Positions 48,322 through 49,789 of a DNA stretch of 64,000 nucleotides are shown here, one piece after another. Origin of the DNA: Fimbriimonas ginsengisoli Gsoil 348 (GTDB lineage: Bacteria > Armatimonadota > Fimbriimonadia > Fimbriimonadales > Fimbriimonadaceae). The translations under genes were made by a program, and so were the position numbers. The stretch is taken from assembly GCF_000724625.1 (NCBI RefSeq), contig NZ_CP007139.1:2046001-2110000 (forward strand), given 5' to 3'. A model generated the notes under the pieces. It worked only from the letters and a program-made list of their open reading frames with translations. It searched no databases and had not been told where the DNA came from. How positions within the stretch are numbered: position 1 is the first letter of the stretch; the number at the start of each line of letters is the position of its first letter.

Positions 48322-49167
48322 ATGACAAAAGAGAAGGACGGTCGACCAGTAAGCGAAGGGGAAAAGCTGGCCCTGCGGCGGAAGCGCCGAAATCGGCGAC
48401 TGTGGGTGTATGGGGGGCTCCTCGCCGGGCTTTTCGGGGCTTATTCGTTCCAACCGTACGAATTCGACTTTATCCCTCGGAAGATCCCGAACCCTAACCC
48501 GCCGGTGGATCCCGACAAGAACCGGCTGTTCGCGCCCGGAACGAAGATCCTGGTGATCACCGCACACCCGGACGACTCCGAGTTTTACATTGCGGGTTCG
48601 CTCTCTCAGCTGGGAAAGACCGCGGAGATTCAGCAGGTGATCTGCACCGACGGAGACAAGGGATATTACGGTCCGTTTACAGATTCGGCCGAGAACCGCC
48701 GCGTGCGGCGGATGGAGGCGACGCAGGCCCACGAGGCTTGGCACGGCAAGGGGATTACGTTTCTCGGACATCCGGACGGCCGGCTGCGGGCCAACGACGA
48801 GCTGGTCACCCAACTCGTCGACGCGATCGAGAAGTTCAAGCCCGAATATGTGCTCGCCTTCGACGGAGAGTATCCGCCCCGGTTCAGCCACCAAGACCAC
48901 CGCCGGTCCGGCGACGCGGCGTTAGCCGCATGCAAGAGGTGCGGCGTGCCGAAATGGTGCCTTCTCTTCTCCACGATCGCCCCGAACTTCGCGATCGACA
49001 TTACCGATATCTGGGATCAGAAGGTGGCCTTGCTGTCGATCCACAAGAGCCAGTGGGCTCAAAAGATGGAGGGGATCTCCGGCATGGTCGGCGCCCTCGC
49101 CGAGGAAGACGGGACAAAGTTCGGCCTCTCGCTGGCGGAAGGGTATCGCTGCGTCAAGATCCGATAA
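48322..49167 (+). CDS. PIG-L family deacetylase with N-terminal membrane anchor
   Basis: A 281-residue zinc deacetylase. The metal motif is ITAHPDDSEF (AHPDD, about 77), with HPDGRL and the His pair in SHQDHRRSG. Near the N-terminus one hydrophobic helix (about 29-42, LWVYGGLLAGLFGAY) follows a strongly basic stretch, so the enzyme is anchored to the membrane, catalytic domain probably outside. Members deacetylate GlcNAc-type groups in glycolipids or small thiols. ATG 48322 is used; TTG 48313 is possible. Confidence 0.88.
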   Translation: MTKEKDGRPVSEGEKLALRRKRRNRRLWVYGGLLAGLFGAYSFQPYEFDFIPRKIPNPNPPVDPDKNRLFAPGTKILVITAHPDDSEFYIAGSLSQLGKTAEIQQVICTDGDKGYYGPFTDSAENRRVRRMEATQAHEAWHGKGITFLGHPDGRLRANDELVTQLVDAIEKFKPEYVLAFDGEYPPRFSHQDHRRSGDAALAACKRCGVPKWCLLFSTIAPNFAIDITDIWDQKVALLSIHKSQWAQKMEGISGMVGALAEEDGTKFGLSLAEGYRCVKIR

Positions 49168-49182
49168 TCGCTCGGACCGACA

Positions 49183-49212
49183 GCGACAATTCTCGCATGG
49201 ATGTTGTATATT
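49183..49212 (+). promoter_or_regulatory. Sigma-70-like promoter of the leader RNA
   Basis: GCGACA (49183-49188) and TATATT (49207-49212) are separated by 18 bp and match the -35 and -10 consensus at 4 and 5 of 6 positions. It predicts a start near 49219. Confidence 0.5.
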
Positions 49213-49222
49213 CTCAATCCGG

Positions 49223-49249
49223 CCGTCGTGGAGACGGTTATGACGGAGG
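49223..49249 (+). promoter_or_regulatory. Possible Shine-Dalgarno switch in the leader RNA
   Basis: CCGTC (49223-49227) can pair either with GACGG at 49233-49237 or with GACGG at 49242-49246. The second pairing covers the GGAGG (49245-49249) that serves the mini-ORF. The direct repeat GACGGTTATGACGG makes the two states mutually exclusive. Confidence 0.45.
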
Positions 49250-49257
49250 AAAAACCC

Positions 49258-49305
49258 ATGCTGATCAACCCGATTAACTCAACCTCCGCCTCGCAGGCAC
49301 TCTAA
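49258..49305 (+). CDS. 15-residue leader peptide
   Basis: An ORF of 15 codons and a TAA: MLINPINSTSASQAL. GGAGG lies 8 nt before the ATG, one of the best ribosome-binding sites in the window. The promoter upstream and the terminator-like hairpin downstream frame it as a leader peptide or a microprotein. It is not enriched for a single amino acid, so classic amino-acid attenuation is not obvious. Confidence 0.5.
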   Translation: MLINPINSTSASQAL

Positions 49306-49340
49306 GCCCTCGACTGGGCCCTGCAGGCGCTGGTTACAAC

Positions 49341-49391
49341 GCGCCACCCATTCCGACCCATTTGTGGGCGTCCCGTTGTGGGCGCCTTTTT
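49341..49391 (+). terminator. Terminator or attenuator after the leader peptide
   Basis: GCGCCAC (49341) pairs with GTGGGCGC (49379-49385, one bulge) and is followed by CTTTTTCC. An inner CCCA/TGGG stem shares the TTGTGGGCG direct repeat (49363 and 49376), so two alternative foldings exist. The next gene starts 100 bp later. Confidence 0.55.
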
Positions 49392-49492
49392 CCTTGCTCC
49401 GATCCAGCCGTTTGCGCATGGCGCGTACGGCGCGAACATGAAACTATCGTGTTCATGGGTCCCTGACTCTAAGGAGAAAAGGAGTTTCTCTC

Positions 49493-49789
49493 TTGCAGAA
49501 CAGAACCCAAAATCGTCCGCGTCCGGCAGAAGCCGCACGCCTTGCCCTGAGGCGGCTTGTCCGCCGAAACAATCACGAGTCGATCCGGCCCGGCCGTTCG
49601 ACCGTCGCTCTGCCCGAAGATCGAACGCGCCGCGACTCCCTCCATGGGTACGTCGTCTGCTTCGAGCTCGGCGAAGCAACGATCGTGGCCGAAGGCGGAC
49701 TGTTCGCCTTTCAGGTCCCGATGCGCGAACTTCAAATCGGCCAGCGAGTCCGCTTCATCCGCGAAGGCGGAGAGTTCGAGCTGGTTTGA
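49493..49789 (+). CDS. Small basic protein with a beta-barrel-like C-terminal half
   Basis: A 98-residue protein starting with TTG, supported by a strong AAGGAGAAAAGGAG sequence 8 nt upstream. Residues 1-45 are Arg/Asn-rich and basic, suggesting nucleic-acid binding. Residues 48-98 (GYVVCFELGEATIVAEGGLF, then IGQRVRFIREGGEFELV) resemble a small five-strand barrel such as S1 or cold-shock type, a weak resemblance. It lies downstream of the leader RNA and could be the regulated gene. Followed by a perfect hairpin. Confidence 0.6.
   Translation: MQNRTQNRPRPAEAARLALRRLVRRNNHESIRPGRSTVALPEDRTRRDSLHGYVVCFELGEATIVAEGGLFAFQVPMRELQIGQRVRFIREGGEFELV

Follow-up and report, generated by a model that had tools for sequence, protein, structure and literature searches.

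Translational attenuators of the erm/cat type carry leader peptides, the trp/his type comprises amino-acid transcription attenuators, and the leader of cspA, which encodes a small OB-fold/cold-shock protein, is autoregulated and, to our knowledge, has no upstream ORF of the sort described here. Attenuators that depend on an upstream ORF are well known, as two articles illustrate (PMC11264731 and PMC9178857), and a third (PMC12121999) describes, for E. coli topAI-yjhQ, an upstream ORF in the 5′ region that controls the downstream gene via ribosome stalling. Our literature search (Armatimonadetes with riboswitch, Fimbriimonas with leader peptide) found no such work. In a stretch of 64,000 nucleotides from Fimbriimonas ginsengisoli Gsoil 348 (here called the window), we analyzed a region for which we put the chances at about even that it serves a gene for a small OB-fold protein as 5′ leader and is governed by a 15-codon upstream ORF, in the layout of a translational attenuator, with two members. 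If true, Armatimonadota, the phylum covered by that search, would have a gene controlled by an upstream ORF, and a short leader ORF would be linked with an OB-fold protein that is an orphan and possibly binds RNA. If wrong, the locus is ordinary intergenic DNA.

The genome of the window is a single contig of 5,231,762 bases, and the leader fills the gap between the genes for a PIG-L-type deacetylase (stop at 49167) and a PMT/ArnT-like glycosyltransferase. All window features given below are on the forward strand. The parts that the earlier note had listed here, namely a promoter-like site, a GGAGG, two GACGG copies, a mini-ORF, a T-tract hairpin, and a small ORF, were all found to be present. 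The hairpin, said to lie about 100 bp before the small gene, is 105 nt from its TTG start at 49493 by our measurement, and AAGGAG and AGGAG precede this TTG as the gene's own ribosome-binding site. As a side observation, GGTACCTT occurs near the predicted glycosyltransferase start in four relatives of the same genus (L042 to L045), with none seen there in the window; in the part of the window genome that was sampled, GGTACC showed no enrichment before genes (8 occurrences there, 7 in coding DNA).

The promoter-like site, GCGACA-18-TATATT (49183 to 49212), agrees with the consensus, the sole basis of its assignment, at 9 of 12 positions, with the −35-like GCGACA at 49183 to 49188 and the −10-like TATATT at 49207 to 49212 separated by a spacer of 18 nt. 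Sigma-70-like sites numbered 14 in 37.5 kb upstream of genes, compared with 4 in coding DNA and 7 on the opposite strand. Two other upstream signals were seen in the same genome. TANNNT was found 337 times upstream of genes versus 115 times in coding DNA, mostly no more than some 120 nt from the start, an excess that is mostly base composition since the opposite strand is nearly as rich (325). The 8-mers AACCGCTA and TAGCGGTT occurred 10 and 8 times in gene-upstream gaps versus 0 and 1 times in an equal amount of coding DNA, and are perhaps a small repeat.

Downstream of the promoter-like site, folding gave a 5′ hairpin of 7 bp, GGCCGTC/GACGGTT (49221 to 49239), and an alternative stem, CCGTCGTGG (49223 to 49231) with TTATGACGG (49238 to 49246), that covers the first bases of the mini-ORF's Shine-Dalgarno sequence, SD1 (GGAGG, 49245 to 49249, 8 nt before the ATG). 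Here CCGTC at 49223 to 49227 can choose between the GACGG copies that begin at 49233 and 49242. Pairing with the first gives 7 bp at −10.2 kcal/mol; pairing with the second gives 9 bp that cover SD1 at −12.8 kcal/mol and has a probability of 0.79 in a 39-nt transcript. The energies are close, and the first copy is preferred in longer transcripts (0.72 to 0.99 in five folds), so the earlier note drew the switch between the two partners correctly. Equally deep masking of SD1 was seen in 33 of 300 shuffles of the window sequence and 19 of 300 for the relative G009 described below. The exact CCGTC/GACGG pairs did not hold up as a conserved element, G009 masking its SD1 with CTCCG instead.

The mini-ORF, MLINPINSTSASQAL, has 15 codons from ATG to TAA (49258 to 49305) and contains ACCTCCGC (49282 to 49289), which is complementary to SD1 (CGGAGG). 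The ACCTCC segment was seen to pair with SD1 in a 92-nt fold of the window before G009 was found. A hairpin formed by GCCTCGCAGG and CCTGCAGGC (49288 to 49328, MFE) spans the mini-ORF stop codon, and G009 too has a hairpin over its stop codon. An in-frame ATG at 49240 would lengthen the window mini-ORF to 21 codons, MTEEKPMLINPINSTSASQAL; no such longer form was found in the G009 scan. There is no run of one amino acid or of regulatory codons in MLINPINSTSASQAL. The peptides of the two mini-ORFs agree in T-S-A and in the A of position 14 and nowhere else, and the idea of peptide sensing in the earlier note is not supported.

The small gene (49493 to 49789) starts with TTG and encodes 98 aa, as judged from its coding score and from the homologue's frame in G009. 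Its ribosome-binding sites, AAGGAG and AGGAG (together SD2, 49471 to 49484), have the second copy 8 nt before the TTG. The N-terminal half of the protein is basic (pI 12.0), as is the whole (pI 11.1). That the product is a basic protein is not supported as a trait of the family, since its counterpart in G009 has a pI of 4.6 and lacks the basic half. Pfam gave no match to the full protein at an E of 10 or lower, cold-shock families included, and NCBIfam gave only an exosortase-acyltransferase match below its cutoff (E 0.11). AlphaFold2 applied to the whole protein without relatives reached a pLDDT of 61.7, and the fold search with it was uninformative. With a two-row alignment, the last 51 residues were modeled as a five-strand barrel (mean pLDDT, 89.7), for which the best Foldseek E was 0.008. 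Solved folds nearest to the barrel included archaeal IF5A (Z 7.7, rmsd 2.0), EF-P (Z 7.4, rmsd 1.7), and CspA (Z 6.2, rmsd 2.2), each with 51 aligned residues, together with an RRP44 domain and IF-1, and were mostly RNA- or ribosome-binding OB domains. All matches had a Z below 8, which indicates a common barrel type; the C-terminal half is therefore predicted to be an OB/cold-shock-like barrel, and this modeled fold suggests RNA binding.

A lax search with the last 50 residues against 85 family genomes returned one notable match, in G009, a genome of the same genus. Its E of 0.047 by itself weighs little because it is the best of 85 genomes searched and chance would give as much. The match has 40% identity and reaches the last residue and stop, both frames ending in FELV-stop; the pairwise E of the two small proteins is 3e-6, and an independent script also called the G009 gene with a TTG start. 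The weight lies with the DNA just upstream of the G009 gene, which contains a mini-ORF of 15 codons ending in TGA, MNYPSNILVTSARAH (L110:1804-1851, reverse strand). The two loci have in common ACGGAGG-N8-ATG, a length of 15 codons, a TTG-started downstream gene, and ACCTCCGC, read as ACC TCC GC with identical phasing of the codons. The G009 mini-ORF stop is 45 nt from the TTG, with GGGAGG before the TTG and no terminator in these 45 nt; the window has about 140 nt more at this place, and the genes flanking the locus differ.

A GGAGG-led mini-ORF with CCTCC inside was found in 1 of 229 upstream regions of the window genome and 1 of 71 of G009, each time at the focal gene, and in 0 of the 298 sampled nonfocal regions of both genomes, as delimited by a simple gene caller whose threshold was not the same in each genome (60 aa and 50 aa). 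An in-phase 8-mer common to both mini-ORFs arose in 64 of 5,000 base shuffles and 281 of 5,000 codon shuffles. Plain local alignment of the two leaders was not significant (537 of 2,000 and 214 of 2,000 shuffles scored as high), and the likeness in layout was noticed after the fact. On balance, we hold true homology to be more probable than not. Conservation of the leader in relatives, the test set by the earlier note, is divided, the DNA not being conserved and the arrangement recurring in G009 before the probable homologue. From the earlier reading as a regulatory leader, this arrangement in G009 supports a leader with a mini-ORF; the terminator, the exact pairs, and peptide sensing were not supported. 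Since the relative carries the same layout, the mini-ORF leader is probably a real gene switch, not unusual in kind.

The sequence allows SD1 to be masked both from upstream and by the ACCTCC inside the mini-ORF. In the mechanism we propose for G009, ACCTCC would pair with the small gene's site GGGAGGT and close it as long as the mini-ORF carries no ribosome; once a ribosome stands at codon 10 or the stop, it would cover ACCTCC, and the site would open. Folding gave this G009 pairing a probability that ranged, according to where the 5′ end was set, from 0.35 to 0.99. When only the sequence beyond a ribosome placed at codon 10 or the stop was folded, the unpaired probability of the site rose from between 0.03 and 0.05 to about 0.6. 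This predicted opening was matched by 2 of 400 shuffles, and in this respect G009 is organized like a translational attenuator. For the window, no modeled opening of SD2 was obtained: SD2b was 0.96 unpaired when free and dropped to 0.14 once a ribosome was placed at codon 10, the change compared with shuffles (0.36 to 0.14) was equalled by 21 of 150, and folding did not tie the small gene's site to ACCTCC. We infer the same gate for the window, where the insert of about 140 nt would carry a terminator-like hairpin and a competing stem; with such a hairpin in the insert, the read-out may have shifted to the level of transcription. From the models, a working gate is plausible for either genome, and a read-out can be drawn on paper for G009 alone. 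As to the signal, a change in initiation fits best, for example by a slowed or stalled ribosome or by the OB-fold product binding to its own leader. A more specific version, a self-gated leader in which ACCTCC would be a shared lock (for the mini-ORF's site and, in one relative, for the downstream gene's site) and binding of the leader by the OB-fold product would decide which lock closes, seems to us a long shot.

We searched for further members in several ways. A blastn search with the leader against the other 84 family genomes gave no significant match (best E 0.003, a 28-nt piece), and the first seven mini-ORF codons, written as degenerate DNA, occurred in a single one of 291 phylum genomes, namely that of the window. 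Searched at 0.001, the whole small protein matched nothing in the 112 other genomes of the order, and the read-through mini-ORF gave nothing below an E of 0.19 in the same 112. Rfam had no match in the window, the best subthreshold E being 1.8 in the region and 1.6 in G009. Among the 113 order genomes, profile A2 found only the two known members below an E of 0.03. Scans of genome contigs and of plasmids gave no match and no third member, and inspection by eye of the flanking-gene synteny, downstream of PIG-L in the relatives inspected and at nine loci upstream of the glycosyltransferase, revealed no mini-ORF leader and no small protein. At 49 protein-match loci, Shine-Dalgarno-led mini-ORFs with CCTCC appeared in the two focal places alone. 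The pattern CGGAGG-N6..10-ATG-N15..36-ACCTCCGC was rejected as a marker; its 43 matches in 39 of 291 genomes take in both focal loci and compare with about 47 in reversed controls (hand count). A looser pattern gave 23 matches versus 11 in controls in 20 genus genomes (hand count), and the 11 of these 23 that were translated yielded no third clear member. In G011, a partly palindromic element around CGGAGGATCACAG.ATGTAGCCAGGGTGTCA was seen by pattern search in three near-copies (C16:113125, C32:84172, and C56:218196), one of them on the opposite strand; it is perhaps an intergenic repeat family. If our reading is right, the case also shows that a leader missed by DNA and RNA-family searches is recoverable via its downstream protein.

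The region might instead be ordinary intergenic DNA, with a chance mini-ORF, a promoter-like site, a weak hairpin, and a coincidental likeness to G009, an account we hold to be unlikely yet deserving of real weight. Taken alone, the window features are mostly at chance level. GGAGG mini-ORFs numbered 11 in 57.7 kb of intergenic DNA, sampled from 464 kb of the window genome, versus 10.6 in shuffles; the 11 include one artefact at a region edge (L108), a flaw that the shuffles share. The fold z of 49219 to 49393 was −1.7, and 34 of 100 other intergenic stretches had −1.5 or lower. The same account draws on the lack of a homologue of the leader DNA in 85 genomes, the uniqueness of the seven codons among 291, the nonsignificant leader alignment, and a protein match that is the best of 85. 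What it has to explain away is the equal length, the equal spacing, and the in-phase 8-mer before one candidate homologue, such a mini-ORF having no instance among the 298 regions elsewhere. What goes beyond chance is this layout in common with G009.

Two further explanations turn on the terminator-like hairpin, GGGCGTCC/GGGCGCCT followed by TTTTT (49366 to 49391 in the terminator scan), whose stem at 49366 to 49387 has the five T directly 3′. It competes with an ACAACG...CGTTGT stem (49336 to 49379, by folding), and a separate hairpin, GAACATGA/TCGTGTTC, was folded between it and the small gene (49434 to 49454). In a transcription attenuator, the ribosome's position on the mini-ORF would pick either the ACAACG/CGTTGT stem or the T-tract terminator, and the five T and the mutual exclusion of the stems agree with this; the hairpin is also mildly notable where intrinsic terminators are rare, only 19 of the 224 gene ends sampled being followed by a terminator-like hairpin. 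On the other hand, the 8-bp terminator stem had a probability of at most 0.08 at equilibrium in all seven modeled window states, although cotranscriptional folding could differ from equilibrium, the mini-ORF lacks a single-amino-acid run, and G009 has neither stem. The terminator scan found 2 versus 1.5 in shuffles, and terminator-like hairpins in tandem gaps numbered 10 of 138 on the sense strand versus 5 of 138 on the other. With the hairpin absent in G009 and rarely formed in the window at equilibrium, the terminator with alternate folds of the earlier note was not supported, and transcription attenuation strikes us as improbable. The promoter-like site, Shine-Dalgarno sequence, ORF, and terminator-like end could also make up a complete short unit, that is, a stand-alone small RNA or small-protein gene at 49219 to 49393 unrelated to the downstream gene. 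This is highly improbable in our estimate; in G009 the mini-ORF lies so near the small gene, with no terminator seen in the 45-nt gap, that the two would share one transcript.

For the translational attenuator that we favor, each of the known systems offers a partial parallel. As in the trp/his type, a hairpin and its T-tract come after a short ORF in the window; unlike in that type, the regulatory-codon run is missing, and the terminator is weak and confined to one of the two genomes. With its long 5′ leader and small OB-like product the gene recalls cspA, whereas the small protein here lacks a Pfam cold-shock match. With topAI-yjhQ, the locus shares an upstream ORF in the 5′ region and no visible relation in sequence or genes. 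It differs from the erm/cat type in showing no conserved stalling peptide, in having a downstream gene other than one for resistance, and in that opening is predicted in G009 and not in the window. What it has in common with the erm/cat type is a short ORF that has its own Shine-Dalgarno sequence and stands before a gene with a site that the leader may sequester, and, as predicted for G009, a ribosome position on that short ORF that would open the site.
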